DNA of 22,313 nt from a virus, in IMG/VR virus record IMGVR_UViG_3300000115_000227, positions 1 through 22,313 of that record. One strand, given 5' to 3'. Of the stretch, positions 3,201 to 22,138 are shown piece after piece. The notes under the pieces are model-generated. The model had not been told where the DNA came from. It saw nothing but the letters and a program-made list of their open reading frames with translations, and made no database searches. Positions within the stretch are counted from its first letter, which is position 1, and each line of letters starts with the position of its first letter. A program made the translations under genes and the position numbers.

Positions 3201-6200
3201 TACCTGTAAATAATGTATCATTAAATGATTTAGATCCTCCTGCTATATATGTGAAAAATAACCAATTATTTTATGGTACTAACATAATAGCAGACTCAAC
3301 AGCAGGTACTACTACTATTTTAAATGGGGTATTATCTAGTAATTTTAATTTAGGAGGATTTGATATTACTGGTGAAGGTAACATTAATATTACAGGTAGC
3401 ATATCAGCAAGTGTAATAACTGCTAGTGAAATTTATGCTTATAATATAGAAACTACTAATTTAACCGCCAGTAATGGTATCCTTACCAATAATGTTACTA
3501 CTAACAACATAACAACAGAAACCCTTACAGTAGGTAATACCACAATTGATGGATCTTTTATTATTAATACTACTAGTGCAAGTAGCGAACCTATTCCTTA
3601 TGTCTTCCCCCATCAAAGTATGTCATTTCAAAATGATAATTGGTTTGAGTGGAATGGTCCTTTAAACAACAATAATTTTGTCGATAATAGTGCAAGTATG
3701 GTTGATAATTTTTCAAATTCTACTGCTACTATTAATCCAGAAAACTCAATTTTTCCTAATAGTGCTATTAATATTATATTTGACTTTACTAACCCTGTTT
3801 ATTTAGAAGAATTTAGAATTGATTTTGGTACAGTAACAAATGGAATTACAGTAAAAAAAATACCTAAAGATATAAGAATATATGGTTCTAATGAAAATTT
3901 AGTAGGTAGTGCCATATACCCCCAAACAAATATCCAAACAGGAAATTATCAATTAGGGGGCTTTGCAGGAACTCATTTAGCTACTGTACCAGTAGGTACT
4001 TTATTAGCAACTAAGGTAACTGCATCTAATACTAATAATGCAGCACAAGAACAACAAGGTAATGATCCCCAATTATTTAGATATTATAGACTAAGATTAT
4101 CGGGAAGTCATAATTTTCCTAGTAATAAAGATGTTACAATAGAAGATATAACTCCTGTTACACGATCATTTACAACCAATACATTTTCTTTTACAAATGA
4201 AGGATTTGAGGGAGATGTAATAAGTGCAAGTTATGCGGTAAGTGCAAGTTATGCTGTAAGTGCTTTAAGTGCAAGCTATGCTTCTCATTCAACAAGTGCT
4301 TTAAGTGCAAGTTATGCTTCTCATTCAACAAGTGCTTTTAGTGCAAGCTACGCCTCTAGTTCAACAAGTGCTTTAAGTGCAAGTTATGCTTCTCATTCAA
4401 CAAGTGCTTTTAGTGCAAGCTACGCTTCTAGTTCAACAAGTGCTTTTAGTGCAAGCTATGCATCTCATTCATTATCGGCAAGCCATGCAGTAACTGCAAG
4501 TTATATACATATAGATAATATAGATGGAAATATAGTTAACAATAACAATAACAATAACAATAATTTATGGTATGATGGGACTGATGAATCCCCCAATATA
4601 ATAACCTCCTCCAATAATGTATTAATAACTGGTTCATTAAAAGTATCAGGTGGAATTTCTGTAGGTAGTTCAGGTTATATTGATAAATTTAACACAATTA
4701 CAATTGATAACAGTTTTATATTATTTAACACAAGATCTATTATTAATGGTGATTTTTCATCACCAGTAAATAGAGGAATAAAATTCAGTACTTTAGGAAG
4801 TGATGTAGAAAACACAAGTGGTATAATTCATTTCTTTAATGGAAGTAATTCTGCTAAGGGATATAGTATAGCTTACAATGGTGGAGCTAATAATGATGTA
4901 TACAATCTTAGTGGAGAAACTTTTGCTATAAAAAATCACACATCTGCAAACAGTAATATTACACCTGACAATAGTTTAGTTATTAATAAGCTCAATAGAA
5001 TAGGAATACTTACTACTCCTAATTCATTTGATTTAACTATAGGAACCAGTAAAACTGTAGAAATTAATAACAGACTTACTGTTACGGGTTATCAGGCTAT
5101 AAATGCTAAAGCTCCCTCATCTGGTGACACACGATTAATAGTAGGGGGTAATATAAGTGCAAGTGGTGTTGTTAGTGCTTCAAAATTTCATGGAGATGGT
5201 TCAGACTTAACTAATATTACATCTGAATGGGATGGTACTTTTGAAGGGCAAGCCCAAATAACGGGTTCACTAATAGTTAGTGGAAATAATAGTTTTATTA
5301 GTACTTCAGTAATACATGTGGGGGGTGGAACATTTACATCTGAATCTTTAGCTGCAGGTGGTACAGGTGGTACACAGGGATCAAATTTCCCCCATAATAG
5401 TTTACTTAATGGTGCTGCTTTTGTATCCGCATCTCTAGTAGTATCTAACAGTTATGGTATACTATCAAACAGTGCTTCCAATAATAATTTTATAACATCA
5501 AACATTAATCCATCTACTATATTTAGTGGAGACTTTTTTAATATTTTTGATAAAAATTCATCTACATCTTTTAAAGTTGCAGACGGAAGTGGTGATTTAA
5601 ATGGCGCAACTATTGATTATGATTTTTACAGTGACTTAGGATATAGTCCTATTATTGATAAATTTAGAATTGTTTTTGATACTTTTGGGGCATTTACTCA
5701 TCATAAACAAGTTCAAATATCAGGGTCTAATGATACTATAAACTGGGATGGTATATTTGAAGAACCTGTAACTAGTGAAGCAGACAGAACAGTATCTTTT
5801 TCTAATAATACACCATATAAAAATTATAGAATTACTTTTAAATACAATTCCTTTGTTTTTGGAAATGCTTTCTTCTTTGCTCTTAAACAAATATATTATT
5901 TTGGTAGTGCTGATTATAATTTAAATGTTTTAGGTAATATAAAAGCTAACAATATAATTACTACTACTTTAAGTGCAAGTAGTTATATTAGTTCATCAGT
6001 TATTCATATAGGTGGGGGAACATTTACATCTGAATCTTTAGCATCAGCCCAAGCAGGTGGTGATAATTTAGGTAACCATATTGCAACAAAAGATTTAAAT
6101 TTAAATAATTTTAATATATTAAGTGGTTCTAATATAAGTGCAAGTGGAAATATTTATGGAAACACAATTTTTAGCACTGATTATAGATTTACTAATTCAG

Positions 6201-9190
6201 ACAGCCATATATACACTGATGATAATAATAGTATTATTATCTCTCCTAATGATACTGATATATTAACTATATCAAACATCTCAGATGTAGATAGAGTACT
6301 TATTGATGGAAATTTAGAAGTAATTAAGAGTATAACAACAAGTGCAGATATAAGTGCAAGTGGTACTGTATTAACTAAATTTTTACAACTTCCACAAGCA
6401 CCTAATGGTACAAGTGATGGTGCTATCCATTTTGGTGGAACTGCAGACGATAATGGGTTTATTTATAATGATGGTAGTACTTTAGTATTAGGGTATAATG
6501 ATAATGATATACTAAAAATACACGATACTAGTCCACATGTTGAAATAGTGGGGGATTTAAAAGTAACTAATAATATAACATCCTTAGGCAATATAAGTGC
6601 AAGTGGTTTATTATTTTTTAGTGCATCCACAACTACAGAAACAAATTATAATATCTTAGTACAAAACCCATCTACAGGTCAAGTTTACACAACAGGAAGT
6701 ATTGGTGGTAGTACTATTGGGGGAGAAGATAATGATTGGGAAATAGAAACAACTAGATTAACATCTTCAAAAGATATATTAGTTAAGGGTCATATAACAG
6801 CTTCAGGTGCGTTAAGTGCAAGTGGGTTTATATATGGTTTATTACCCCCATCAACAAGACCACAACCAATAGTTGTACAAAACACTAATAAAGATACAGC
6901 AAGTCCTACTACTTCTGGAAGATTAGAAACATCTTCTTTACTAATACACCAACACACTATTTTTTCTAATATAGGGACAATAGTAATTGGTGGTAATTTA
7001 GATGATGAAGGAAATGATGATTCAGGTAACCCTCCAGTAGACCCACCTACACCTAATGATCCTAACGACCCTAATGGTCCCGTTATTTTTAATCCAGGTG
7101 ATTGGGGAGGTAATAAACCAAGTGTTATATTTAATAATAGTAAAACAAGACACAGAGGTATTTTAGACATCTCAGGGAGTGGAAAATTAATAACCTCAGG
7201 TGGTATAAAATTTGAAGCGAATTCATTAAGCAACAACCCACGACCTAAGTCACCAGTATTAGTATATGATGAAACAACAAATGAAATACGTTTAGCTAAA
7301 AACACATTTGATGGAACTACTACAGTTGAAATAGAAGGAGACCAACAAATTAAAGGTAACCTATCTTTAACAGGGTCTTTTGATGCCCATAGAGCAATAA
7401 TTGGAATTTCAGGTTCAGAAAGGAAAGCATTCAATGATGGAAAAGTAGATGATTTTTTCCTTAATCCCGCATTAGAATCAGAAAGATATTCATTATATGT
7501 TAGAAACGGTGCTACTATTGTAGGTGGTGACATTATACCCGATACTCCAAATGCATATTCTTTAGGAACCCAACAATTCCCATTTAAAGATCTTCATATT
7601 AATAGGGGAACAATTCATTTCTACAGTGGTAGTAGTGCAAGTTCGGGTTCAATAAAACATGAGATAGGTAAAATTTCTATTAATACTTCATCTAAAGAAG
7701 TAGAATTTAAATCTGGTAGTAATTTTCAATCAATACGTGCCTCAGAAATAAATTTAGGTAGTGGTGATTCATTTAATGGACAAGGTTCAGTTCAAATAGG
7801 CCAATCAACTCAAGGATTTATAGCAGTAAACGCAGAACCGGGTAAGTTTTCTACAATACTTAGAGCTGAAAGCACAGTATTATCGGGCGACAACAGAATG
7901 GGTTCAATTACTCAAAAAGGATCTGGTAGTTTTGCAATACTTTTAGATGCTGACCAAGTAAGGGGTGATGCTAAGTTTGTAATTGAAAGTAATCAGGCAG
8001 CACCCTCAGTAGGACCCCGACTATTTTCAGTAAGTGAAAGTATGGAAACTAGAGCTTATGGTTATTTAAAAGTTGATAATTATATTACAACCACAAATAT
8101 AACATCCTCGGGTAATATAAGCGCAAGTGGTATAATAACAGCCAACACATTTATAGGAAATATTACTGGAACCTCTACATTAGCATCTGGATTAACAGGC
8201 GCCCCTGATATAATTGTAGGTTCATTAACAGCAACCTCAATAACATCATCCATAATAACCTCATCTATTATATATACAGAAGGTTCTAATATATTTGGTG
8301 ATAACTTATTAGATACCCATTTATTTAATGGTTCAATAACAGCTTCGGGTAATATAAGTGCAAGTGGAATTATTAATGCTACCTATTATCAATCAAAAGG
8401 TGTAAAAGTATTAAGTTATAATTCTCACTCAGTACAACTAGGTAATTCACCTACAACTCCTGTATCAATCACAGGTAGTATAACAGCTTCAGGAAATATA
8501 AGTTCAAGTGGGGATTTATATGGGACTAATTTATATATAAAAAATGACATTTTTGGGGTAACTAATATGTTACTTACAGGAAGCATAACAGCTTCAAGTA
8601 TAAGTGCAAGTAATAATTTATTTTCAAAACGAGCTTATTTATACGATAATGAATCAGCATTTTTAGCTTCTCTTACAAACCCTACTCTTCATCTAAAAAA
8701 TACAAACGTAGGAGGCAACGCAGATTCATATATAAAATTTGAATCCACAGACAATGGTTCTCATTATGCAGTAGGGATAGATACTAGTAGAAATACTTTT
8801 GTAATTGGTAGTGGTAGTTATTTAACACAAGATGTATCCCCACCCTTCTCAATGAGAGACGATAAAATAGCTATAAATATAGTAGGTGGTATACCTTCAT
8901 ACACTTTAGATGTAGGAGGAGATGTTAGATCTTCAGGTACTATATACACAGACACATTAGCAGAAAATCCAACTTCTCCATCTAATGGTATAACAATACA
9001 AAGTCATATAACAGCCTCAGGTAATATAAGTGGTAGTCATACAACAACCGCATCATTTGGTTCATTACAATTAAGTAATTTACCAACAACCCCAACAGGA
9101 TTACCTACTGGTTCAGTGTGGGTTTCAGGAAGTAAAAATGATGCTTCAACAAGTAATGTAAATTGTGGAACCTTAATGATAGTAATATAA
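224..9190 (+). CDS. Giant modular tail-fibre-like protein (2988 aa)
   Basis: This is the dominant gene of the window. About the first 300 residues are non-repetitive and probably the virion-attachment part; near residues 240-300 is a YLFDYKEGVLFF...WIVAYRYNGPTGF segment of a type seen in other phage fibres. The remainder is mostly short beta repeats (ITGSLSVNG, ITASGNISASG), as expected of a trimeric fibrous shaft. Three discoidin-like modules interrupt it at about residues 505-705, 1128-1312 and 1722-1900, each with an SGSND or YGSN turn, and two of them with a late YYR or NYR strand. Residues about 1333-1430 are Ser/Ala/Tyr repeats, followed by nine Asn, and a Pro/Asp/Asn-rich hinge lies near 2265-2285. 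An LGTQQFPFKDLHINRG module lies near 2445. The C-terminus has LPTTPTGLPTGSVW, a common fibre ending; no intramolecular chaperone domain is recognised. It is about twice the length of T4 gp34 or gp37. The ATG at 224 is the first start in frame and has no Shine-Dalgarno. A role in host recognition is inferred. Confidence 0.85.
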   Translation: MANINDQLENFNEKEKRLASFKGLFNILNTTSIEKPPKDELFYKSSNTFPDEIISAADTIISNPVADFVTTFNNDDIIKPALTKIWVTGSGITLQERYARGYLKVFDENTTGANPYVEKIICPLTKVLDTFDQCYMAYAPPSGSTTADSYLENYVDSNDSNYQTKELDQSPLFASQSSILKNFINPTKFGAAYKVRVFASTHDNLNSEGGLISDIAANNFENFTEDTVGNFNSLDPAAIPGTDGYLFDYKEGVLFFGLQGPAGGGTDGDDSDVTNKNHPLWIVAYRYNGPTGFSGHNINITASNLQVDNNLNVDGTISFQGLNFIEENISTFSGSTIFGSGSSVLAASHSFTGSVQITGSLSVNGIDISSGGSGGTGTILVSSSNYPKLYGDYFKTTHIPTDTNDVTEFVPHGLGFKISSSIGSSNGFKILLGSSSNLLINKPNRGEGSKGTAANNYLDAVLRINDATIVNSPTNFITSSNPKRSYDLFKFTTSSGQDLPNLASYAAFGGISLGGFNGIDTVGAHNLKHSQHVFSFDTPTIIPQIGIYYSRGEAQPLNVNWSPSHSIEEIQFSGSNDGGVTWTPLYVTSSMNQGLTGSSNSSHIPHSVISSSDPRMDNIPNVSTGIPDINDNFNISIAHFTSSVFDNPAPFTTYKLAVSGGADYFSSTNDFSPNDDNSAYYRHYKLHYIHHIDLYQQKTFGEGNRKQLNIGFDDTPSIINPTLTNFDVAVSSSATKVGLTHLIPDNQAFFFSGTASADISLNAQNNFNIADVGTITSLTSSTNLLTSLKVTTNRLQVDSNTSIGGSTFIGGNTAINSSLFMGGTSFTLPSQSIVLKSLHPIFFTNRSQDGDTGVDQFSARIFGHYTQENVSDLYLDAYRIFSVADKELRFLTLDPQGSVLVSSSILSISSSTNISGTLTTLGDATMSKNLRVNGTVDATGFTVNGSTLESGGGGSGFPHNQGAINGITANITGSLIISGNDTSTIPYLQLHEIPVNNVSLNDLDPPAIYVKNNQLFYGTNIIADSTAGTTTILNGVLSSNFNLGGFDITGEGNINITGSISASVITASEIYAYNIETTNLTASNGILTNNVTTNNITTETLTVGNTTIDGSFIINTTSASSEPIPYVFPHQSMSFQNDNWFEWNGPLNNNNFVDNSASMVDNFSNSTATINPENSIFPNSAINIIFDFTNPVYLEEFRIDFGTVTNGITVKKIPKDIRIYGSNENLVGSAIYPQTNIQTGNYQLGGFAGTHLATVPVGTLLATKVTASNTNNAAQEQQGNDPQLFRYYRLRLSGSHNFPSNKDVTIEDITPVTRSFTTNTFSFTNEGFEGDVISASYAVSASYAVSALSASYASHSTSALSASYASHSTSAFSASYASSSTSALSASYASHSTSAFSASYASSSTSAFSASYASHSLSASHAVTASYIHIDNIDGNIVNNNNNNNNNLWYDGTDESPNIITSSNNVLITGSLKVSGGISVGSSGYIDKFNTITIDNSFILFNTRSIINGDFSSPVNRGIKFSTLGSDVENTSGIIHFFNGSNSAKGYSIAYNGGANNDVYNLSGETFAIKNHTSANSNITPDNSLVINKLNRIGILTTPNSFDLTIGTSKTVEINNRLTVTGYQAINAKAPSSGDTRLIVGGNISASGVVSASKFHGDGSDLTNITSEWDGTFEGQAQITGSLIVSGNNSFISTSVIHVGGGTFTSESLAAGGTGGTQGSNFPHNSLLNGAAFVSASLVVSNSYGILSNSASNNNFITSNINPSTIFSGDFFNIFDKNSSTSFKVADGSGDLNGATIDYDFYSDLGYSPIIDKFRIVFDTFGAFTHHKQVQISGSNDTINWDGIFEEPVTSEADRTVSFSNNTPYKNYRITFKYNSFVFGNAFFFALKQIYYFGSADYNLNVLGNIKANNIITTTLSASSYISSSVIHIGGGTFTSESLASAQAGGDNLGNHIATKDLNLNNFNILSGSNISASGNIYGNTIFSTDYRFTNSDSHIYTDDNNSIIISPNDTDILTISNISDVDRVLIDGNLEVIKSITTSADISASGTVLTKFLQLPQAPNGTSDGAIHFGGTADDNGFIYNDGSTLVLGYNDNDILKIHDTSPHVEIVGDLKVTNNITSLGNISASGLLFFSASTTTETNYNILVQNPSTGQVYTTGSIGGSTIGGEDNDWEIETTRLTSSKDILVKGHITASGALSASGFIYGLLPPSTRPQPIVVQNTNKDTASPTTSGRLETSSLLIHQHTIFSNIGTIVIGGNLDDEGNDDSGNPPVDPPTPNDPNDPNGPVIFNPGDWGGNKPSVIFNNSKTRHRGILDISGSGKLITSGGIKFEANSLSNNPRPKSPVLVYDETTNEIRLAKNTFDGTTTVEIEGDQQIKGNLSLTGSFDAHRAIIGISGSERKAFNDGKVDDFFLNPALESERYSLYVRNGATIVGGDIIPDTPNAYSLGTQQFPFKDLHINRGTIHFYSGSSASSGSIKHEIGKISINTSSKEVEFKSGSNFQSIRASEINLGSGDSFNGQGSVQIGQSTQGFIAVNAEPGKFSTILRAESTVLSGDNRMGSITQKGSGSFAILLDADQVRGDAKFVIESNQAAPSVGPRLFSVSESMETRAYGYLKVDNYITTTNITSSGNISASGIITANTFIGNITGTSTLASGLTGAPDIIVGSLTATSITSSIITSSIIYTEGSNIFGDNLLDTHLFNGSITASGNISASGIINATYYQSKGVKVLSYNSHSVQLGNSPTTPVSITGSITASGNISSSGDLYGTNLYIKNDIFGVTNMLLTGSITASSISASNNLFSKRAYLYDNESAFLASLTNPTLHLKNTNVGGNADSYIKFESTDNGSHYAVGIDTSRNTFVIGSGSYLTQDVSPPFSMRDDKIAINIVGGIPSYTLDVGGDVRSSGTIYTDTLAENPTSPSNGITIQSHITASGNISGSHTTTASFGSLQLSNLPTTPTGLPTGSVWVSGSKNDASTSNVNCGTLMIVI
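4219..4500 (+). repeat. Six tandem 36-bp units encoding a Ser/Ala/Tyr repeat
   Basis: Within the giant fibre gene, AGTGCTTT recurs at 4259, 4295, 4331, 4367, 4403 and 4439, exactly 36 bases apart. Each unit encodes a 12-residue peptide close to SALSASYASHST, with L/F and H/S variants. Two 18-base units encoding VSASYA precede the array at 4219-4254, and a degenerate unit (LSASHAVTASY) follows it. The substitutions are scattered, so the array is old enough to have drifted. SASYA-type repeats are common in phage fibre shafts and probably form a regular trimeric coil or beta structure. Confidence 0.9.
4538..4564 (+). repeat. AACAAT microsatellite encoding nine asparagines
   Basis: The run is AAC AAT repeated four times plus one AAT, in frame, giving nine Asn between the Ser/Ala/Tyr array and LWYDGTDESPN. 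The 6-base period means slippage would change Asn number by two without shifting frame. It probably forms a flexible linker between the coil and the next shaft segment. Confidence 0.85.
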
Positions 9191-9191
9191 T

Positions 9192-10646
9192 ATGGGCTTA
9201 AAGATTAGAGATACATTTAATAATGAGGGGGCATTAAATAATGCTGATTTTAAAGGAAGAAGTATTATAGACTCTTCCCACACATCTATAAATTCTATAA
9301 CGGATGATTTAATTTTGGGCAGTTCAATTTCATCATCCCCCGAAATAACAGGTAGTTTATCGGTAATTAAAGATTTATTTATAGATACTAGTACTTTACA
9401 AATAAAAAGATTTTTTGAGGGTGTATCGTCTACTATAATCCAACATCAACATAATCAAGTACCTTTAACTATAAACTACGATTTAGGTCAAGAATGTATG
9501 GTGACTTTTTTTAAAATCCACCAACCTCCAATATCTTCCCAATTTATTAATACAACAGGTCTGTTAAACGAACGTACACAATTCTCATCATTTATAAGAA
9601 ACGTAGAATTTTCGGGATCAAATGATAATTCTAATTTTACCCCTATAACCCAATTAAAAGATCCAGGAAATCAAATATCCACACAAAAAATCGAAACCCA
9701 ATTTACTAATCCCAACCAATTTAGATATTATAGATTTAAGTTAAGTGAATTTGGGACAAATCCTGATAACAATAATGATGTATATGATTATTTAGTAACA
9801 AGTAGTATTTTTATCTCAGAAATTACATTAGAAAATAAAGAATCTATTAATAAAATTAATCGAAATGCAATTTTACCCTCCATTTTTTCTGCCCCACCAA
9901 TAAGATTATATAGGGGTTGGAATATGATTGGATACAACCTACCTTATAAGTCTGATATATTCCAAGCAATGATAGGTTTATTTGAATCTCTTCCCGGACA
10001 TTTTAGTAATTATGTTCAAATAATAAAACAAACAGATGGAGCATTTCGAGCTTTTAACCCAGTACAGGGGGGTACACTTGGAGAGTTACTCCCTCATGTA
10101 GGTTACATGATTTTCCTTCTTGACACAGCACCATCTTCTTTTACCACATCATTTAAATTTGGTAGATCATCAATAGCACAAGATATAACACCCGATGGGG
10201 GAAATTATCAGTTAATAGGTTCTGATCTATTTTACACAAACAGATCAGATTATATATCAGTATCAAATGAAATGACTTTTGATGTGGAAGAAGGTTGGCA
10301 ACATATTGCATTTCCCCGATTCCATACCCAACCTATACACCAAGCTTTACGGGCCGCATTTGCCGACACAGGTGATGAAAGAATTGAATATGACCCCGTT
10401 ACTAATACATTTACACCTGACCCTTATAGTTTTCCTTTACAATCGGGTAGGGTTCACATACAGCAATTCATTAATATAATAAAAACGGTTGATGGAACAT
10501 TCCAATCATATTATAATGGCCAAACAGGAGGATCTCTTTTTCATTTAAACTCTAATGAAGGATATATGGTATCTTTCTTAAGACCCGTAACCCTAAGGTT
10601 TGCGGGGGACCCCTTAAAAAGCTCTTTACCCCTTATAGATCAATAA
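9192..10646 (+). CDS. Fibre- or whisker-like protein with a discoidin-like module and two GW..GY domains (484 aa)
   Basis: The start lies one base after the giant fibre's TAA, so the two are probably translated together. The N-terminus (about 1-65) has fibre-type residues including EITGSLSVIKD. Residues about 70-215 look like a discoidin-like sandwich, with NVEFSGSNDNSNFTPI, then FRYYRFKLSEFG, then ISEITLE. The C-terminal half holds two related domains. One begins RGWNMIGYNLP (Gly242-Trp243), contains VQIIKQTDGAFRAFNPVQGG and ends with GYMIFLL. The other begins EGWQHIAFPR (Gly368-Trp369), contains INIIKTVDGTFQSYYNGQTGG and ends with GYMVSFL. GW-x-x-x-GY domains of this kind occur in secreted bacterial surface proteins, notably of Bacteroidetes. 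The gene lies just upstream of neck-type genes, the position of the T4 whisker gene wac. That parallel is positional only, and no fibritin coiled coil is seen. Confidence 0.75.
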   Translation: MGLKIRDTFNNEGALNNADFKGRSIIDSSHTSINSITDDLILGSSISSSPEITGSLSVIKDLFIDTSTLQIKRFFEGVSSTIIQHQHNQVPLTINYDLGQECMVTFFKIHQPPISSQFINTTGLLNERTQFSSFIRNVEFSGSNDNSNFTPITQLKDPGNQISTQKIETQFTNPNQFRYYRFKLSEFGTNPDNNNDVYDYLVTSSIFISEITLENKESINKINRNAILPSIFSAPPIRLYRGWNMIGYNLPYKSDIFQAMIGLFESLPGHFSNYVQIIKQTDGAFRAFNPVQGGTLGELLPHVGYMIFLLDTAPSSFTTSFKFGRSSIAQDITPDGGNYQLIGSDLFYTNRSDYISVSNEMTFDVEEGWQHIAFPRFHTQPIHQALRAAFADTGDERIEYDPVTNTFTPDPYSFPLQSGRVHIQQFINIIKTVDGTFQSYYNGQTGGSLFHLNSNEGYMVSFLRPVTLRFAGDPLKSSLPLIDQ

Positions 10647-10680
10647 ACATAATAATAAAATTGTAGTATTTGAAAAAAAA

Positions 10681-10692
10681 TTATATTTATAT
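10681..10692. promoter_or_regulatory. TTATATTTATAT motif in the gap before the connector genes
   Basis: The 66-base gap between the 484-residue protein and the connector block carries TTATATTTATAT, and the same 12 bases recur at 16565-16576. The core TATTTATA (10684-10691) is the exact reverse complement of the T4 late promoter box TATAAATA, but every gene here reads the other way. It could be a divergent promoter-like element, a different type of promoter box or a processing site. Function is not shown. Confidence 0.3.
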
Positions 10693-10712
10693 GGGAACAA
10701 ATTAACTAAATT

Positions 10713-11861
10713 ATGGCAAACATTTCTATATGGCCCGGCTCATCATCATTTTTTCCAGGAGACACACCTTTTGGATTTTATGATAGTGATACCCAATTTC
10801 AATCTGACGCAGATAAAGTTGCAGATTGGTGTGTAAGACGTTTGGGATATCCTCTTGTAGACATTGAATTACAAGCAATAAATTTATTTACTTGTTTTGA
10901 AGAAGCTATTAATGAATATGGATCACAACTTTATCACTTTCAAATAATAAATAGTTTCCATACTTTAGAGGGAACAGCAACAGGATCAAAACTAAATGAT
11001 AGTATAATTGCTCCTAATTTAGGTAATACAATTAACATCGCAGAACAATATGGTAGTGAAGCTGATGGGGCAAGTGGAAATTATAAATTAGAAAAAGGAA
11101 CATTAAATGTAAATGCGGGACAACAAAGTTATGATTTAATGACAGATGTAGGCTCTACTATAAGTGGTTCAGAAGCAGTTTATTTAAAACGAGTTTACCA
11201 TTACGCCCCCGCCGCAATTAATAGATATTTTGACCCCTACGCAGGTACAGGAACAGGAATACAATCATTAATGCAATCATTTGGGTTTGGTAACATGTCA
11301 CCAGGTGTTAACTTTATGATGATGCCTATGTATTTTGACGTTTTAAAATTACAAGCAATTGAATTAAATGATGCAATTAGAAAATCAGCATATCATTTCG
11401 ATGTTGAAAATAATAGATATTTAAAATTATTTCCCATACCTAAACAAAGTTATACTTTACATTATGAGTATGTTTTAAAATCAGTTGCCAACAACCCAGT
11501 AAAAGACACAACGGGGGGTATAACTAATTTATCAAATGTACCCTACACTCATCCTACATATAAATTTATTAACGAACCTGGAAGACAGTGGATTCGTAGG
11601 TATGCTTTAGCATTAGCTAAAGAAATGTTAGGAAGTGTAAGAGGTAAATATCAATCTATACCTATCCCAGGATCTGATACCACTTTAGATTTTGCTAGAT
11701 TATTAAGTGAAGCCTCAGCTGAAAAATCAGCTTTAATTGAAGAATTAAAAACATTCTTAGATGAAACTACCCGAGTTAAACAACTTGAAAGGCAAAACCA
11801 AGAAGCACAATTAACACAAGAAACTTTCTATAAGGTTCCTTACCCAATCTACATAGGATAA
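10713..11861 (+). CDS. Putative neck or head-tail connector protein, T4 gp13/gp14-type role (382 aa)
   Basis: I recognise this as a family common in uncultured marine T4-like phages. It begins with a GDTPFGFYDSD segment, followed by VADWCVRRLGYPLVDIEL at about residues 36-53 and then TCFEEAINEYGSQ. The middle has RYFDPYAGTGTGIQSL and a FGFGNMSPGVNFMMMP stretch, then YHFDVENNRYLKLFPIP. A conserved C-terminal part follows (RQWIRRYALALAKEMLGSVRGKY, then IPIPGSDTTLDF), ending VPYPIYIG. Family members are usually annotated only as structural or neck proteins. The connector role is inferred from that annotation and from position after fibre or whisker genes and before other small virion proteins, as in T4 wac-13-14. 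The start at 10713 follows the longest A/T-rich gap upstream and has MAN at its N-terminus. The stop overlaps the next start in TAATG. Confidence 0.65.
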   Translation: MANISIWPGSSSFFPGDTPFGFYDSDTQFQSDADKVADWCVRRLGYPLVDIELQAINLFTCFEEAINEYGSQLYHFQIINSFHTLEGTATGSKLNDSIIAPNLGNTINIAEQYGSEADGASGNYKLEKGTLNVNAGQQSYDLMTDVGSTISGSEAVYLKRVYHYAPAAINRYFDPYAGTGTGIQSLMQSFGFGNMSPGVNFMMMPMYFDVLKLQAIELNDAIRKSAYHFDVENNRYLKLFPIPKQSYTLHYEYVLKSVANNPVKDTTGGITNLSNVPYTHPTYKFINEPGRQWIRRYALALAKEMLGSVRGKYQSIPIPGSDTTLDFARLLSEASAEKSALIEELKTFLDETTRVKQLERQNQEAQLTQETFYKVPYPIYIG

Positions 11862-12202
11862 TGATAAAATTAACAGACATATTAACAGAATTACTTAATA
11901 CTTTTGAAATAACGGCTTTATTGTCTTCTGATAAAAAAACATCAATTACAGAAATATTAGATCAAATTAGAGCTTTACGAAAAATAACTACTGTAAGGAA
12001 TGTAACCCCACCTGAATATATGACTCAAAGTTCTTCTGAACACACTATTTTAATTTTAAAATTAGTAACAAGAGGAAATCCTAAACAAGATTTAGAATCT
12101 ATTAAGAATGACATTTTAACCCAAGGTAAAGATAGAACTGATTTAAGAATACCAGGAGTAAAATCTTTTAAATATAAATATGAAACTTTAAAACGTAAAT
12201 AA
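11861..12202 (+). CDS. Small conserved virion-block protein of unknown function (113 aa)
   Basis: Not recognised. The start ATG shares its A with the preceding TAA (TAATG), and its own stop shares its last base with the next ATG in the same way. Its translation is therefore probably coupled to both neighbours and its product needed in similar amounts. The N-terminal 40 residues look helical (LTDILTELLNTF, ITEILDQIRALRKI). The C-terminal part has an apparent beta-alpha-beta pattern (HTILILKLVTRG, then KQDLESIKNDIL) and a basic tail ending YETLKRK. There is no signal peptide, membrane segment or catalytic motif. Being embedded in the connector block suggests a small head-tail joining or completion protein, which is only inference. 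Confidence 0.6.
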   Translation: MIKLTDILTELLNTFEITALLSSDKKTSITEILDQIRALRKITTVRNVTPPEYMTQSSSEHTILILKLVTRGNPKQDLESIKNDILTQGKDRTDLRIPGVKSFKYKYETLKRK

Positions 12203-12750: not shown

Positions 12751-12751
12751 A

Positions 12752-13774
12752 ATGGCAGATAATAAAATAATAAACCCACGAAGACCTATCCCCACAAGGG
12801 GAAATGATAAATTAAGAGAAAATTTATTATCGGGGTTTACTGACAGTTTTCCATCTGAATCACCCCCACCTTTATCTGATAAAACTAATAAGGGCAACAT
12901 TACAACAAGAAAGGATGACACTGTAGGAGAAGTCCATATAGGTTTAGAAGACCATGATAAAGCTATAGCATACTATTTCGAAAATATAATTAAGCCCCAT
13001 GTATTAGTAGATGGAAATCAAACAAAAGTACCCGTATTATACGGTTCAGCTGAAAGATGGAAATCAGTCCAACAAGATGGGTATTATAGGGATAAAGAAG
13101 GTAAAATACAAACACCACTAATTTATTTTAAACGAAACAGTATTGAAAAACGAAGAGATTTAGGTAATAAATTAGATGGGAACAACCCCCAAATGTATTA
13201 TACATTTCAAGAAAGATACACTAAAAAAAACCAATATGATAATTTTTCAGTATTACAAAACAGACAACCTCAAAAGGAATTTCATCGAATTGTAATACCC
13301 GATTTTGTAAAAATAACTTACACAGCTACTATATGGTGTGATTTTATATCACAAATGAATGGCCTAATAGAAGCTATAAATTATTCTTCTGATTCTTATT
13401 GGGGGGACCCCGAAAGGTTTAAATTTAACGCTCAAATCGATAATTATACTAATATTACGGAAATTACCCAAGGGGATAATAGAATAGTTAAAACTGATTT
13501 TACAATTACTTTACAAGGATATTTAGTACCTAAAAGTATTAATAAACTATTATCTCAACAATCACAAAAATCATTTAGTAAATCTACTTTTATAATTAAT
13601 AATGAAGTATCTTTAGTAAAATTAGGAGGACCCCCTTTAGGAAGCACTAGAAGAGATGAACAAGTACCACAAGATAGAGGTAGTGTTAGAGAATTATCTA
13701 ATGGATTAAATATTGAACACCTTATAGAAGGAATTGGTTTTATGGCAATAGAAGATGATTTTATAATATTTTAA
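12752..13774 (+). CDS. Conserved phage virion protein, possibly tail terminator or connector (340 aa)
   Basis: It starts one base after the preceding stop. The first 65 residues are charged and Pro-rich (NPRRPIPTRGN, SESPPPLSD) and probably disordered. The folded core begins near residue 66 with VHIGLEDHDKAIAYYFENII and KPHVLVDGNQTKVPVLYGSAERW, followed by PLIYFKRNSIEKRRDLG. Then come MYYTFQERYTKKNQYDNFSVL, FHRIVIPDFVKITYTATIWCDF, INYSSDSYWGDPERFKFNAQIDNY and TDFTITLQGYLVPKS. The last 70 residues look variable. I recognise this set of motifs as a widespread family in large marine and environmental phages whose exact role I do not know. Its size (T4 gp15 has 272 residues) and place after neck-type genes make a tail or sheath terminator possible. 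The evidence is order and length only. Confidence 0.6.
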   Translation: MADNKIINPRRPIPTRGNDKLRENLLSGFTDSFPSESPPPLSDKTNKGNITTRKDDTVGEVHIGLEDHDKAIAYYFENIIKPHVLVDGNQTKVPVLYGSAERWKSVQQDGYYRDKEGKIQTPLIYFKRNSIEKRRDLGNKLDGNNPQMYYTFQERYTKKNQYDNFSVLQNRQPQKEFHRIVIPDFVKITYTATIWCDFISQMNGLIEAINYSSDSYWGDPERFKFNAQIDNYTNITEITQGDNRIVKTDFTITLQGYLVPKSINKLLSQQSQKSFSKSTFIINNEVSLVKLGGPPLGSTRRDEQVPQDRGSVRELSNGLNIEHLIEGIGFMAIEDDFIIF

Positions 13775-13784
13775 ATAAATAAAA

Positions 13785-16541: not shown

Positions 16542-16564
16542 CTATTTATTTTTTTAAAATTTTA

Positions 16565-16576
16565 TTATATTTATAT
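16565..16576. promoter_or_regulatory. Second copy of the TTATATTTATAT motif
   Basis: It lies in the 64-base gap between the 918- and 452-residue fibre genes, 29 bases before the ATG at 16606. It is identical over 12 bases to 10681-10692 and again contains TATTTATA. It is preceded by a T-rich stretch (16552-16563) without a hairpin. A promoter, processing site or chance AT-rich sequence are all possible. Confidence 0.3.
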
Positions 16577-16605
16577 AACGAACCAAACATCTAAAACTAA
16601 CACAA

Positions 16606-17964
16606 ATGAGTACATTATACGTCAATACAATAACACCCAATTCCGGAGATACAGTAACAATATCAGGGTCATTATCAACTACCGGTAAATTAACTATTGG
16701 AGATAATGCTAGTGATACAGTAGCTATAACTGCTGAAATTACTTCTAGTTTAATTCCTGATTTAGATGATAAATTTGATTTAGGTTCATCCACAAAACAA
16801 TGGAAAGATTTATATATTGATGGAATAGCTAATATTGATTCAGCTTCTCTTGGAAATATAGATTCAAATTTAAGTCCCGCAGTTGGCGCAACATATGCTT
16901 TAGGTACAATGGCCAAATCATGGGGTAGTTTACATGTTCATGGTTTAGCTCATATCCACACTGCTTCAATTAATGTTGTAAGTTCAAGTTTACTTCCTGA
17001 TAGTGATGATGCATATGATTTAGGTTCAAGTGGAAGACAATGGAAAGATTTATACATTGATGGCACAGCTAATATTGATATCTTAGTAGGTGTAGCAAAT
17101 GCATCTATTACTTCAGGTAGCTTTACAAACATAAACACATCTACTATAACAGCTTCATCCCACATAAGTGCAAAAGGAAATATAGTAGGTGATGGTAATA
17201 CCAATATAACTGGAATTTCAAACCTAGTTTTAAATCATATAACATCCTCGGGTAATATAAGCGCAAGTGGTACAATAACAGCAGGAAATATAGTAGGTGA
17301 TGGTAATACCAATATAACTGGAATTTCAAACCTAGTTTTAAATCATATAACATCCTCGGGTAATATAAGCGCAAGTGGTACAATAAAAGCTAATACATTT
17401 ATAGGAAATATTGAAGCAGATGGAAGCAGTACAACTGACATTCTTGATATAAGAATAATTTCAGGTGCAGCAGGAAGATTTGAGCATATAACAGCCTCAG
17501 TAGGTACATTTACAGGTAATATAACAGCAAATGGAAACATAGTAGGTGATACTAATACTAATATCACAGGAATTAAAAATATTGTAGCTGCAACATCTTC
17601 TTTATCTGTATTAACTGCTACAGCAAGTATTTCTACTGCAAAAATAATAATTACTAAAGGTACAGCAGCATCAGTTGATTCTGCTACATATAATGTAAAT
17701 GGTAGTAAAGTTGAAGTAAGAACTCAATTACAAGCGGAATTAGCCGACGGAACATTTGCAGCATTTAAACTACATAATACTTCAATAGCTACAGACTCAG
17801 TAGTAATGGGTGCCTTTACAGGTGGAACAGTAGGAGGGGTAACAGGATCATTTATATCAACAAATACTATAGCAGCTAGCACAGCATCATTCCGAATCCA
17901 TAATGAAACAGGAGCAGCCATAGCAAATAACACAGGATTTACTGCCTCATTTGTAGTACTATAA
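16606..17964 (+). CDS. Tail-fibre-like repeat protein (452 aa)
   Basis: The N-terminus MSTLYVNTITPNSGDTVTIS is typical of marine phage fibre proteins, where it probably forms the first shaft strands. Residues 58 to about 162 hold three 40-residue repeats of the type DLGSSTKQWKDLYIDG. Residues about 190-261 hold a 36-residue repeat present twice (NIVGDGNTNITGISNLV then LNHITSSGNISASG). The last 110 residues (from about TAKIIITKGTAASVD) form a non-shaft C-terminal domain with LHNTSIATDSVVMGAFTGG, then FRIHNETGAAIANNTGF and TASFVVL. I take this for a beta-sandwich tip or cap. The ATG at 16606 follows an A-rich leader without Shine-Dalgarno. A strong terminator follows 22 bases after the stop, so this gene closes a transcription unit. 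Receptor contact is inferred. Confidence 0.8.
   Translation: MSTLYVNTITPNSGDTVTISGSLSTTGKLTIGDNASDTVAITAEITSSLIPDLDDKFDLGSSTKQWKDLYIDGIANIDSASLGNIDSNLSPAVGATYALGTMAKSWGSLHVHGLAHIHTASINVVSSSLLPDSDDAYDLGSSGRQWKDLYIDGTANIDILVGVANASITSGSFTNINTSTITASSHISAKGNIVGDGNTNITGISNLVLNHITSSGNISASGTITAGNIVGDGNTNITGISNLVLNHITSSGNISASGTIKANTFIGNIEADGSSTTDILDIRIISGAAGRFEHITASVGTFTGNITANGNIVGDTNTNITGIKNIVAATSSLSVLTATASISTAKIIITKGTAASVDSATYNVNGSKVEVRTQLQAELADGTFAAFKLHNTSIATDSVVMGAFTGGTVGGVTGSFISTNTIAASTASFRIHNETGAAIANNTGFTASFVVL
16777..17064 (+). repeat. Three diverged 120-bp repeats with the LGS-W-KDLY module
   Basis: Units start at 16777, 16897 and 17017, exactly 120 bases (40 codons) apart. The third is taken only to the end of its conserved part. 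Units 1 and 3 read DLGSS..QWKDLYIDG. Unit 2 is degenerate (ALGTMAKSWGSLHVHG). The spacing shows in-frame duplication followed by divergence. Confidence 0.85.
17175..17386 (+). repeat. Tandem duplication, period 108 bp, 104 bp identical
   Basis: Bases 17175-17278 and 17283-17386 are identical over 104 bases and lie 108 bases (36 codons) apart. They encode two copies of GNIVGDGNTNITGISN followed by LVLNHITSSGNISASGTI. Identity at silent positions means the duplication is recent or kept alike by recombination. Part of it matches bases 8097-8132 of the giant fibre gene exactly. Confidence 0.95.
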
Positions 17965-17986
17965 TAATTTAAATTTTATATAATAG

Positions 17987-18012
17987 AGAGCCGCATTAGC
18001 GGCTCTTTTTTT
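17987..18012 (+). terminator. Rho-independent terminator
   Basis: AGAGCCGC (17987-17994) pairs perfectly with GCGGCTCT (17999-18006) around an ATTA loop, followed by a run of seven T (18006-18012, the first belonging to the stem). It is the only GC-rich hairpin with a T tract found in the intergenic gaps. On the opposite strand no T tract follows, so it acts on + strand transcription. It separates the fibre genes ending at 17964 from the next group. Confidence 0.92.
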
Positions 18013-18026
18013 ATATGTATGTATAT

Positions 18027-18326
18027 ATGACAAAAATTACTTGGAATACTGCTAATATTTTATGGAATTCAAACTCATTTACATGGGATGAAATTCAATT
18101 AGTTCAAGAAATTAGAGCAGGAGGTAATATTGAAGATGATATGCCTTGGATGAAACCCGAAAAAAAGAAAAAATTAATTAAATTAATTCTTAAAATTAAA
18201 GGAGAAACTCTTACAGAATCTAAAACTAAACCAATCAAACAATATAAAATAAAAGCTGAAGACGTAAGGTTAGTAATTAAAGAGGTAAGTGGTATAGAAC
18301 TAACAACCGAAAACGTATCTTTTTAA
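18027..18326 (+). CDS. Small unrecognised phage protein (99 aa, or 103 aa from 18015)
   Basis: Not recognised. The in-frame ATG at 18015 lies two bases after the terminator's T tract; the ATG at 18027 gives MTKITWNTANILWNSNSFTW and is preferred because its leader is clear of the hairpin. Neither has a Shine-Dalgarno. The N-terminus carries two similar TW or LWN stretches (ITWNTANILWNSNSFTWDEIQL, positions 3-24 of the 99). The centre is acidic then very basic (PEKKKKLIKLILKIKG), and the C-terminal 30 residues look helical (AEDVRLVIKEVSGIEL). There is no membrane segment or catalytic motif. It is the first gene after the terminator, so it must be expressed by readthrough or from a promoter in the 62-base gap. 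Confidence 0.65.
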   Translation: MTKITWNTANILWNSNSFTWDEIQLVQEIRAGGNIEDDMPWMKPEKKKKLIKLILKIKGETLTESKTKPIKQYKIKAEDVRLVIKEVSGIELTTENVSF

Positions 18327-18335
18327 TATTTATTA
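18325..18335. promoter_or_regulatory. Variant TATTTATT motif before the 184-residue gene
   Basis: The 21-base gap between stop (18324-18326) and ATG (18348) contains AATATTTATTA. It differs by one base from the TATTTATA cores at 10684, 16568 and 19436. Possible shared regulatory or processing element; function unknown. Confidence 0.2.
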
Positions 18336-18347
18336 CAAAATATAATA

Positions 18348-18902
18348 ATGTATAAATTATTTACAGATAAAACAGAACTATTTGAGTGTAATATTTCACT
18401 ACAAGGTGCAAGTTTAAAAAAATCAAAAGCGAGATTAGTAGTCGAAACCAAAGACTACTCTTTACTTTTCAATGGTTCTATTAATTCTAACGGTAAATGT
18501 GAAATACCAATCAGAAAACTTAAAGGCCTTATAGATGAAGACACTAGTGGTAACATTCGTTTAGAGGTAATTGCCGAAGACACATTCTTTACTCCATGGC
18601 AAAGTGACTTTGAAGTTGAAACAAGTAGAAAAGTTACCGTAGAAGTAAAAACCCAAACAACCCAAAAACCAATTTTAGAAGCTAAAGCGACAATAAAACC
18701 ACAACAAGTTACAAAATCTGAAAAGAAACATGTGGTTAACTTATTTAAACTCTTTATAAAAGAAGACATTAATATAGATAATATATCTTACAAACGAAAC
18801 GAATTAAATAATATAGTTGCTACTTATCTTAAAGAAAACACAGTTGATGACACTGAAAAAGTTATTAATGGTGTTTTAAAGATATTAGAAAGTAAAAAAT
18901 AA
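18348..18902 (+). CDS. Conserved phage protein of unknown function (184 aa)
   Basis: I have seen similar proteins in marine T4-like phages but know no role. The N-terminal 100 residues are a likely all-beta domain: LFTDKTELFECNISLQGAS, KARLVVETKDYSLLFNGSI, CEIPIRKLKGLIDEDTSG, IRLEVIAEDTFFTPWQSDFE. The LEVIAEDTFFTPW stretch is the most distinctive. A Lys/Thr/Gln linker (about 105-127) follows, then a helical C-terminal domain (KHVVNLFKLFIKEDIN ... YLKENTVDDTEKVINGVL). Beta domain, linker and helical tail could suit a scaffold or assembly factor as well as a virion part; nothing decides between them. The ATG at 18348 lies 21 bases from the previous gene. Confidence 0.65.
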   Translation: MYKLFTDKTELFECNISLQGASLKKSKARLVVETKDYSLLFNGSINSNGKCEIPIRKLKGLIDEDTSGNIRLEVIAEDTFFTPWQSDFEVETSRKVTVEVKTQTTQKPILEAKATIKPQQVTKSEKKHVVNLFKLFIKEDINIDNISYKRNELNNIVATYLKENTVDDTEKVINGVLKILESKK

Positions 18903-18913
18903 AATGGTTTTAA

Positions 18914-19435
18914 ATGGCTCTTCCAGATTTAACAGGTCAAAACATACAAAATACTTACCAACGAGTATTACAAACAGATAATGGTACTCTTAGAGATGGT
19001 ACTGGTTCTTTAGTCGATGAACTAACAGTTCCTGGTACGGGTTCATTTGGTAGAGTAATATGTACTACAATTTCAGCTTCTACAGGTGAATTTGATGCAA
19101 ACACAATTTTTATTGGTGGGGTTTCTTTTAATAAAGATGACTTAGATACTTTAAAGGAAGGAAAAACAATCAACACAGTTACTAAAGATTTAGGAGAAGG
19201 AGACACAGGTAAAGCTAATATTATTCGTCCTGAAGCCATAATGCACCCTGATGATAATAGTACTTACAGTAAATACACAACAACAGGTAGAATAGGTACA
19301 TTTATTAGTGGTACACTTTTTCATGATTTTAATTTAAATGGAAACAATAATTACGCACGAATAGGTGATGGTAATACTGACATACGACTTAAAGGTAATA
19401 TAAACGATGCAACTTTGGATGGTGGAACCTTCTAA
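18914..19435 (+). CDS. Small fibre- or baseplate-associated protein (173 aa)
   Basis: The N-terminus MALPDLTGQNIQNTYQRVLQ, followed by TDNGTLRDGTGSLVDEL, is a beginning shared by many phage structural proteins next to fibre genes. A short shaft-like part follows (GTGSFGRVICTTISASTGEFDANTIFIGG), then FNKDDLDTLKEGKTI and a stretch with IIRPEAIMHPDDNS. The C-terminal third is Gly/Asn/Thr-rich and ends DIRLKGNINDATLDGGTF. There is no enzyme motif. It lies 11 bases after the preceding gene and 12 before the 896-residue fibre, so it may join that fibre to the virion or be a minor fibre section. Another ATG at 18904 is in a different frame and is not used. Confidence 0.65.
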   Translation: MALPDLTGQNIQNTYQRVLQTDNGTLRDGTGSLVDELTVPGTGSFGRVICTTISASTGEFDANTIFIGGVSFNKDDLDTLKEGKTINTVTKDLGEGDTGKANIIRPEAIMHPDDNSTYSKYTTTGRIGTFISGTLFHDFNLNGNNNYARIGDGNTDIRLKGNINDATLDGGTF

Positions 19436-19443
19436 TATTTATA
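19434..19443. promoter_or_regulatory. TATTTATA motif before the 896-residue fibre gene
   Basis: The 12-base gap is almost entirely TATTTATAATAT and ends at the ATG. TATTTATA (19436-19443) matches the cores at 10684 and 16568 exactly. Its closeness to the start argues against a normal forward promoter for this gene and leaves a translation-leader, processing or reverse-strand role open. Confidence 0.25.
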
Positions 19444-19447
19444 ATAT

Positions 19448-22138
19448 ATGGCAAGTACAATACAAATAAAAAGAGGAACAGGATCAGCAGTACCATCAGG
19501 GTTAGCTGATGGAGAATTAGCAATTAATCTTGACAATAGAAGATTATATTTTGGTTCTGGTTCAACTAGTGTAAATGATTTTTCCTTTGGGGAAATTACA
19601 GCAGAAAAATATATAGTTTCATCTTCAGTCTTATATGTTACAACTTCTTTTAGCTCAGGTTCAACTGAATTTGGAGACACAGCAGACGACACCCACACAT
19701 TCACAGGTAATATAACAGCCTCGGGTAATATAAGTTCAAGTGGTAATATAATAACTGATCAAATATTACTTAATGATGGTAATAAAATCATAGGACATCA
19801 TGGAACAGATGGCTTTCAAATAAGAACCCAAAACACAGATCCTATTGTTTTTAAAACTAATGGTAACAATATTAGAGCAACTATATCCTCAACTGGAGAA
19901 GCAACATTTACAAATGTAGTAAATGCTACTAAGTTAAACACAGGTCAAGGTGACAATGAGTTGTATGCTATGAACCAAGATGTAGAAACCACAGATAATG
20001 TATTATTTAATAATATAACAGCCTCAGGTAATGTAAGTTCAAGTGGTGATATTTATTCTAGTAGATATTTTGCTAACGAACAACTTGCATTAAATAATGT
20101 TAATGGTGCTATTACTTTAGGATATGATAACACTTACCCTATTAATATAGGCAAAAATTCTAATCCAATTGGTATCTATGGACCTGTAACAGCCTCAGGT
20201 CATATAAGTGCAAGTGGTAATAATTATGCTAGTGAATATTATACAGATGGTTATTCATCTTTAAACACTAGTGGAACTCAAGGTAGAGTATTTAGTGCTG
20301 CTGCTATAACAGGAATTCAAATAGGAAGAAATGGAACCCCCAATAAAAATATAGAATTACTTGGGCCTGTAACAGCCTCAAGTAATATAAGTGCAAGTGG
20401 TACAATTACAGCAAATTCAATAATAGGAACAGTTGGAACAGCAACCCAAGGAACTATTGATCATGATTCATTAGCAAATTTTGTAGCAAATGAGCATATT
20501 GATCATTCAGGAGTTTCGATAACAGCAGGTGCAGGACTAACTGGTGGAGGAACTATCGCAGCTACTAGAGACATAGCAATAGGAGCAGGTACGGGTGTGA
20601 CAGTAAATGCAAATGATGTTGCAATTGGGCAAGATGTAGCTACAACAGCTAATGTGTTATTTAATAATATAACAGCCTCAGGTGATATAAGTTCAAGTGG
20701 ACGCGTTTATGGAGATAGAATCTATACAGGTCCATTGATATTTGGAAGTTCTCCAAGTACAGATAAAATACGAATCGGATATGATTCTAGTGTAGATTTT
20801 TTAGAATATGGTAAAAATGCAACCACATCACACTTTTTTAAAGGAACTGTAACAGCCTCAAGTAATATAAGTGCAAGTGGTACAATTACAGCAAATTCAA
20901 TTAGAGGAACAGTTGGAACAGCAACCCAAGGAACTATTGACCATGATTCACTAGCAAATTTTGTAGCAAATGAGCATATTGATCATTCAGGAGTAAGTGT
21001 AATAGCAGGAACAGGACTAACAGGAGGAGGAACTATAGCTGCAAACAGAACACTTAACGTAATTGGGGGAACTGGAGTAACTGCCAACGCAAATGACATA
21101 GCAATTGGGCAAGATGTAGCTACAACAGCTAATGTATTATTTAATAATATAACAGCCTCAAGTAATATAAGTGCAAGTTTAAATTCAAAACTATACGCAT
21201 CATCTGCAAGTTTTGGGGGCGCTGCATTTTTACGTTCATTCAATGTAAAAGGAGCAGGTCTTGAGGGTAGATTAAGTTTACAAGGAGCCTCTACCAATGA
21301 CAATCCAGGTATTGAAATGACAGTCAACGACAATACCTCAAGAGTATTAATGAGATTAAACCCAATTGGAAGTAATGGTACTGAATTGGCAATTTTTACT
21401 GAACCTGATGGGGGAAGTATAGCAGAAGCAATAACAGTAGAATCTGATGGTAATCTTGAATTAAATTCTCATGATATAAAGGGGGTAAACAAATTAGTTG
21501 TAGATGGGGGTCAAGACGAAGTTTTAAAATTAAACACAACTTCTGCTACTGGTAATCCTTTTATAGATTTTAGTCAAAATGGAAGTAGAAAATCTTTTAT
21601 ACAACATAATGATACAAATAATACTTTAAAAATAGCTTCTGAGTTTGGCGCTATTTCTTTACAAACTGCTACTGATGGTAATCAAACTGAGAGAGTGTCT
21701 ATATCAAATGTGTCTGCATCTTTCACAGTACCAGTTAAAGACGCTGGCCGTACAATAGTTAAAATATTACCCCATAATTTTGTACCTAATGATGGTGGTC
21801 GACCTGTACAAATAGAAGATGATTCTATAGGATCAAATGAATTGTTTTTACATTCACATTCAGATTTCGACATGTACGCATACATTGAAATACCATATGG
21901 AATGACTGCCACTCATGTTAAAATATTTGGTTCAAACACAGGAGAAAACTTTACAGTATATGAAGCTAATTTTAATACTAAAACAATAGCAGCAAAATGT
22001 TCTGCAACAGCAATAGAGTCTGAAGCCGACATAACCGATGTGCCATGGACTGATGCAAATTATTTAGTTATATTAGTAACATCAGCGGGAGTAACAGATG
22101 AAATTCACGGTGGGTATGTAAAAATAGAACCATCCTAA
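19448..22138 (+). CDS. Tail fibre with Mtd_N-like N-terminus (896 aa)
   Basis: The N-terminal 40 residues (MASTIQIKRGTGSAVPSGL, ADGELAINLDNRRLYFG) match the common phage fibre attachment pattern related to the N-terminal domain of the major tropism determinant. A FGDTADDTHTFTG module near residues 75-90 leads into ITASGNISSSG shaft repeats. A 160-residue segment is present twice (about 307-466 and from 467) with GLTGGGTIAA and DVATTANVLFNNI. From about residue 590 the shaft gives way to other folds (RVLMRLNPIGSNG, KLVVDGGQDEVLKL). The last 130 residues (GRTIVKILPHNFVPND, FLHSHSDFDMYAYIEIPYG, ATHVKIFGSNTGENFTVYEA) look like a distinct beta domain, probably the tip. The ATG at 19448 has no Shine-Dalgarno. 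It is a candidate receptor-binding fibre by architecture, not by shown binding. Confidence 0.82.
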   Translation: MASTIQIKRGTGSAVPSGLADGELAINLDNRRLYFGSGSTSVNDFSFGEITAEKYIVSSSVLYVTTSFSSGSTEFGDTADDTHTFTGNITASGNISSSGNIITDQILLNDGNKIIGHHGTDGFQIRTQNTDPIVFKTNGNNIRATISSTGEATFTNVVNATKLNTGQGDNELYAMNQDVETTDNVLFNNITASGNVSSSGDIYSSRYFANEQLALNNVNGAITLGYDNTYPINIGKNSNPIGIYGPVTASGHISASGNNYASEYYTDGYSSLNTSGTQGRVFSAAAITGIQIGRNGTPNKNIELLGPVTASSNISASGTITANSIIGTVGTATQGTIDHDSLANFVANEHIDHSGVSITAGAGLTGGGTIAATRDIAIGAGTGVTVNANDVAIGQDVATTANVLFNNITASGDISSSGRVYGDRIYTGPLIFGSSPSTDKIRIGYDSSVDFLEYGKNATTSHFFKGTVTASSNISASGTITANSIRGTVGTATQGTIDHDSLANFVANEHIDHSGVSVIAGTGLTGGGTIAANRTLNVIGGTGVTANANDIAIGQDVATTANVLFNNITASSNISASLNSKLYASSASFGGAAFLRSFNVKGAGLEGRLSLQGASTNDNPGIEMTVNDNTSRVLMRLNPIGSNGTELAIFTEPDGGSIAEAITVESDGNLELNSHDIKGVNKLVVDGGQDEVLKLNTTSATGNPFIDFSQNGSRKSFIQHNDTNNTLKIASEFGAISLQTATDGNQTERVSISNVSASFTVPVKDAGRTIVKILPHNFVPNDGGRPVQIEDDSIGSNELFLHSHSDFDMYAYIEIPYGMTATHVKIFGSNTGENFTVYEANFNTKTIAAKCSATAIESEADITDVPWTDANYLVILVTSAGVTDEIHGGYVKIEPS
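20367..21174 (+). repeat. In-frame duplication with 480-bp period
   Basis: Bases 20367-20514 match 20847-20994 with only a few differences, and 20621-20680 match 21101-21160 with one. Both pairs are exactly 480 bases apart (160 codons). The segments between have diverged, including the part encoding the less repetitive insert (20700-20845 compared with 21180 on). This is an in-frame shaft duplication with a patchwork of conserved and changed parts. Confidence 0.92.

Follow-up and report, generated by a model that had tools for sequence, protein, structure and literature searches.

Recombination at motifs of the distal tail-fibre genes of T-even phages was reportedly described by Tetart, Desplats and Krisch in 1998. 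That work, cited in three later papers (PMC6363177, PMC3797505, PMC10408124), reportedly treats conserved motifs in the fibre genes of T4-like phages as points at which adhesin segments are swapped, as we propose for the element described here. The element differs from the T-even motifs in both peptide and DNA, in reaching up to 20 copies per genome across three genes, in keeping its silent positions between phages with saturated neck genes, and in occurring in uncultured environmental phages. In six lytic phage genera, conserved DNA motifs around receptor-binding domains have been proposed as recombination hotspots (PMC10408124). Like the element, they are conserved DNA adjoining exchangeable receptor-binding domains; they flank one domain, average 63-81% identity, include one that is also a predicted terminator, and come without a correlation of motifs with recombination events, whereas the element is intragenic, present in many copies, 85% identical between copies with unrelated flanks, and coincident with breakpoints. 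Marine pelagi- and cyanomyophages carry a hypervariable fibre region between VrlC and the neck gene gp14, described as metaviromic islands or host recognition clusters (PMC3909814, PMC7029224), and the largest fibre gene of the present locus also lies upstream of the neck gene; the portions of these two papers available to us describe the variability without a DNA mechanism. Recent domain shuffling has also been reported in phage receptor-binding proteins (PMC10684548), a likeness to our case in the recent shuffling of fibre fragments and a difference in that it is treated at the protein level, agnostic on the genetic process. A literature search for the element peptide returned no use in phages and no description of the element. 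For T-even fibres the principle is already known, and it has been suggested for motifs of enterobacterial tailspikes; what appears to be undescribed is a codon-locked form in many copies, and how widely it is spread.

The window, that is, the whole stretch of DNA analysed, is the complete IMG/VR record IMGVR_UViG_3300000115_000227 (22,313 bases) and is a piece of a T4-like phage. The element occurs in three genes on the plus strand: fibre gene 1 (224-9190, 2988 aa, nine copies), upstream of the neck gene; fibre gene 4 (16606-17964, 452 aa, four copies, two strong and two weak); and fibre gene 6 (19448-22138, 896 aa, seven copies). The T4-like neck gene (10713-11861, plus strand), which encodes the head-tail adaptor Ad2, served as the control for vertical descent. 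Its best isolate relative is in Microcystis phage Mel-JY01 (48.5% identity), and the absence of the element from the stretch of Mel-JY01 examined led us to reject an ancestral T4-like feature. The N terminus of fibre gene 6 is Mtd_N-like (E = 2.8e-5, slightly under the Pfam cutoff), which by itself is no evidence for a diversity-generating retroelement; inspection by eye of the open reading frames of the window, not every one of which was scanned, revealed no reverse transcriptase. Gene 2 (9192-10646) has a weak F5/8 type C (discoidin) match (E = 0.0011, under the cutoff), and a stretch of gene 1 (4055-4099) is related to a stretch of gene 2 at 73% DNA identity over 45 nt, which suggests, from sequence alone, that putative carbohydrate-binding modules are common to the two genes. 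Fibre gene 1 also contains, at 4222-4507, a 36-nt tandem repeat encoding SASYASHSTSAL/F, whose SAS triplets likewise prefer AGT GCA AGT/AGC and which is possibly another codon-conserved repeat; adjoining this SASYA repeat, at 4538-4565, are nine asparagines from alternating AAC/AAT codons. The predicted structure of one fibre module (pLDDT 76) was left unused because of its pTM of 0.33 and its lack of regular secondary structure.

The element has a 32-nt consensus, ATAACAGCCTCAGGTAATATAAGTGCAAGTGG, encoding the peptide ITASGNISASG. At up to 10 mismatches the window holds 20 copies in the three fibre genes, all in frame and on one strand, with none on the opposite strand and none in shuffled sequences at the same threshold. 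Its 17-mer core, AATATAAGTGCAAGTGG, gave 19 matches at up to 3 mismatches, all on the plus strand, where 0.17 would be expected and no more than 2 turned up in any of 100 shuffled sequences; at up to 2 mismatches there were 16 copies, and none for a reversed-pattern control. The eleven core positions given in the first-pass annotation were all recovered, each with 0 or 1 mismatch, along with five absent from its list (6347, 20030, 20201, 20684 and 21164). Within fibre gene 1, plus-strand copies lie at 5135-5166 (7 mismatches to the 32-nt consensus), 6116-6147 (10 mismatches, with the 17-mer core exact), 6332-6363 (8), 6575-6606 (3), 6794-6825 (5), 8099-8130 (3), 8336-8367 (2), 8480-8511 (3) and 9008-9039 (4, reading ITASGNISGS). 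Fibre gene 4 has copies, also on the plus strand, at 17239-17270 and 17347-17378 (3 mismatches each) and weak ones at 17146-17177 (8) and 17503-17534 (10). The plus-strand copies of fibre gene 6 lie at 19712-19743, 20015-20046, 20186-20217, 20369-20400, 20669-20700 and 20849-20880, with 2 mismatches each, and at 21149-21180, with 3. An invertible fibre cassette of the Gin/Cin/Min type was rejected, inverted crossover sites being absent and 20/20 copies being on one strand.

Several copies sit in duplicated DNA. The copy at 17239-17270 falls within a stretch, 17237-17272, claimed at the outset to be identical to 8097-8132 in another gene; the identity is exact over all 36 bases, stops at both sides, and takes in TCC, TCG and AGC, three serine codons that are rare in the window (3-4% of its serine codons each). 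A 108-nt tandem duplication at 17175-17390 is 99% identical and has one element copy in each unit, that at 17347-17378 being in the second. On a larger scale, the plus-strand module 20367-20698 is duplicated as 20847-21178 with an element at each end, the first 203 nt being 91% and the last 111 nt 86% identical.

The codons of the element are conserved along with its peptide, as the first-pass annotation had stated. Within the window, both serines of NIS[A/S]SG are AGT or AGC in every copy, codons that account for 34% of its serines. In T[A/S]SG/S, just before it, the serine is instead TCA or TCG, despite the same S-G context. We scanned IMG/VR codon-blind, with a pattern allowing any codon for TASGNISASG, and obtained at least 159 exact instances in at least 103 contigs. 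Among the matches listed, codons converged on ACA GCC TCA GGT AAT ATA AGT GCA AGT GGA, with ATA shared by 150/159, the two AGT codons by 137/159 and 143/159, and GCA by 133/159. A looser peptide definition gave 411 non-redundant copies from 123 loci, in which codon agreement exceeded expectation only at offsets -1 to +9 and stopped sharply at the edges; over the 25 codons on each side, amino-acid identity was ~8-10%, near background, and the codon excess was almost nil. Correction for neighbouring codons accounted for part of the agreement and left an excess, observed versus expected, at ATA (0.94 vs 0.62), GCA (0.84 vs 0.66), ACA (0.81 vs 0.65) and GCC (0.48 vs 0.14). No context-corrected excess was found in the pooled copies at AAT/AAC or at AGT/AGC of the first NISASG serine. 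Silent conservation was uneven along the element and peaked in ATAAGTGCAAGTGG. Codon-pair or composition bias was rejected as a cause: a serine followed by glycine is written TCN in TASG but AGY in SASG, and the context-conditioned background falls short of the observed values.

Such agreement could also be expected if the element were a protein connector only, with recombination occurring anywhere, survivors joined at module boundaries, and codons alike by common origin. The peptide is indeed strongly conserved and sits between modules, and because AGY and TCN serine blocks are not interconvertible by silent steps, a good part of the codon agreement could be inherited; the choice of block is frozen by ancestry and is no evidence of silent selection. 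Across the pooled copies, the transition-silent positions, AAT/AAC and AGT/AGC, likewise show codon-usage equilibrium or nearly so. What common origin accommodates poorly is that silent memory is gone from these phages' neck genes and kept in the element. For pairs with necks below 60% identity, neck silent sites were near saturation (Ile 0.46-0.47 vs 0.42 expected; Ser 0.35-0.37 vs 0.31 expected), whereas codon identity in the element was 0.80 for Ile, 0.77-0.84 for Ser and 0.80 for Ala. GxGLTGGG, a fibre peptide that also recurs (242 copies, 72 loci), holds almost no codon memory, and the excess at ATA, GCA, ACA and GCC over the context-corrected expectation also speaks against a connector alone. 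From the near-saturated necks and the near lack of codon memory in GxGLTGGG, we conclude that the phages and fibres carrying the element are older, or less uniform, than its DNA. Silent-site conservation in the repeats is far above what codon usage and codon context predict, halts at the element edges, and exceeds that of both the neck gene and GxGLTGGG. The first-pass annotation had read the silent positions as a sign of gene conversion, recent duplication or selection for DNA homology; recombination and duplication are supported, while selection for DNA homology has not been established, since the equilibrium at AAT/AAC and AGT/AGC means that uniformity kept by recombination fits at least as well as selection for the exact letters. 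Taken with the crossover data below, a role as connector and nothing more appears improbable to us.

Homology between the window and its relatives (designated by L numbers) repeatedly breaks at element copies. In fibre gene 1, homology to L200 begins at 6573, exactly at 6794, and, at 91% identity, at 9006, and homology ends around the copy at 8099-8130 for L201 (8128), L208 (8131) and L200 (8142). In fibre gene 6, homology of many relatives ends at 19743-19759, that of L208 and L124 at 20050-20067 and that of L208 at 20700, with a further end at 21178; it begins at 20187 for L116 and L227, at 20370 (92%) and 20850 for L208, and at 21145-21146 for L203 (97%) and L122 (98%). Part of fibre gene 6, from 21146 onwards, is 97-98% identical in L203 and L122, whose upstream modules differ (compared stretch, L203 16034-16154 and window 21116-21236), and L122 then diverges at 21706, which is not near any element copy.

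To quantify these breaks, a breakpoint was scored as at the element if no more than 10 bp separated it from the corresponding edge, with random positions in the same ORFs as the null. Over all loci, 75/282 right ends (null 14.2) and 60/188 left ends (null 8.6) fell at the element, and at identities of at least 95% the counts were 13/21 and 10/12 (null 1.4 and 0.8). Fibre homology thus breaks at the element 5-6 times as often as at random and about 10 times as often for recent exchanges (9.5-10.5 fold at high identity). Motif-independent loci, fetched by the neck gene alone, gave 14/44 and 12/29 (null 2.2 and 1.4), and a second locus set 39/90 and 23/64 (null 4.7 and 2.8). The controls GxGLTGGG, YIVSSS and non-motif SxSG showed no enrichment at 90% identity; the exception among them was the right ends of YIVSSS, enriched 4.3 fold at 80% identity and 0/50 at 90%. 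A general trait of recurrent fibre peptides was rejected on these controls and on the codons of GxGLTGGG. The counts include both partners' views of single events and are not fully independent, and for this reason we rely on effect size and repetition rather than on any single p value. Breakpoints away from the element made up ~70% at identities of at least 80% and ~30-40% at identities of at least 95%. Any dependence on DNA over peptide would rest on few diverged copies (at breakpoints, 205/271 as against 11/23 diverged copies). Breaks in homology between related phages lie at the repeats far above chance. The two checks set out in the first-pass annotation, on silent sites and on breakpoints, thus both favour its reading, and neither of its refuting conditions held.

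The position of the crossovers can be read within the element itself. For copy pairs sharing only the left flank, the identity excess, relative to the reference, was 0.69 at the left edge and had dropped to 0.16 at the right; for pairs sharing only the right flank it was flat at ~0.35 and then rose to 0.59 at the right edge, a gradient weaker than the left-flank one and with a raw contrast that was not significant. This decay of identity places the crossovers inside the element. At base level, junctions in the window and its relatives show one common left flank followed by differing right flanks, and one common right flank after three different left flanks, with the element in between. L055 and L215 match over 2,443 nt at 95.8% and again over 2,116 nt at 97.5%; between these stretches lies a single short cassette in which they differ, bounded by the element on each side. 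All copies at up to 6 mismatches (878/878) lie in a single frame, and all spacings (853/853) are multiples of 3, with a median of 225 nt. Both the decay and the exact length and frame at every junction require in-register pairing and speak against a connector alone. In-frame shuffling of fibre modules at the repeats, as first suggested from the window alone, is supported by the breakpoints, the decay inside the repeat, the module duplication and the copy common to two genes.

Every sequence used here is a metagenomic contig, and near-identical repeats of ~32 nt can confuse short k-mer graphs, so assemblers might have joined unrelated contigs at short repeats. We give this very little credence: the junctions of L201/L202 (99.9%), L215/L221 (100%) and L083/L288 (97.6%) each appear in separately assembled contigs that read through the element into both flanks, although L215 and L221 may come from one sampling project. 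Moreover, partner copies are often several bases apart, codon conservation across contigs is independent of any join, and the reading frame is preserved in all cases. Equally hard to credit is a sequence-specific site of a dedicated enzyme, whether a site-specific recombinase, a homing endonuclease or a diversification system; the uneven silent conservation, highest in the stretch named above, is what such a site might leave, whereas copies with several mismatches still lie at breakpoints, all copies are direct and none inverted, identity decays gradually rather than at a single point, and no such enzyme was identified among the window genes, few of which had family matches.

The exact 30-mer of the element is present in 81 IMG/VR stretches and in 19/103 of the listed codon-blind loci, so that TASGNISASG may occur in roughly 440 stretches (81 x 103 / 19, a rough figure with at least 103 loci in the sample). 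Bacterial and archaeal genomes (257 Gb) gave 25 matches, and chance or a cellular origin was rejected on this near absence. Only one of the 25, on a Candidatus Pelagibacter MAG contig (NZIO01000021.1, L251), reads TASGNISASG with near-viral codons; it is probably a phage contig binned with its host and a possible clue to the host. The element was not found in isolate phages by a protein search that filters low-complexity sequence and is weak for divergent copies. There is accordingly no laboratory recombinant. In L203, the closest relative with a long contig (53.9 kb; 91% identity in the neck), a gene for a UvsX-like recombinase (E = 5e-71) lies beside one for a single-strand DNA binding protein; UvsX was seen in this relative and not in the 22 kb window record.

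We consider it probable that the element is an intragenic homologous-recombination joint for the in-frame exchange, duplication and loss of fibre modules. The DNA conservation beyond the peptide, its sharp edges, the breakpoints, the internal decay of identity, the constant frame and the element-bounded cassette swaps are observed. We infer, rather than observe, that UvsX carries out the exchange, that co-infection brings the partners together and that phages gain by a change in host recognition, the last with no isolate or host known. As a peptide, ITASGNISASG would be a short connector from one module to the next in long fibres that are presumably trimeric; as DNA, its 32 nt would be alike enough across copies, genes and phages to act as a short crossover homology. 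Phage homologous recombination, probably UvsX with single-strand binding protein, would cross over at the element, and because all copies share strand and frame, any crossover would keep the reading frame unbroken between the left and right modules that it joins and leave the connector whole. Modules would in this way be replaced between co-infecting phages, or duplicated or lost within one genome. A stronger version would make the element a recombination signal that has evolved as such and is shared, its codons being selected to stay alike and fibre domains being pooled through it across uncultured phage lineages; this is possible and remains doubtful.

No part of a marine phage genome varies more than its host-recognition regions, and swaps marked by the element may explain how uncultured T4-like viruses keep changing the fibre part that recognises the host. 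The element also offers a marker for dividing very long fibres into natural modules. Because the joint is readable in sequence data, the rate of exchange per joint, the lineages that share modules and the effect of silent recoding all become measurable.
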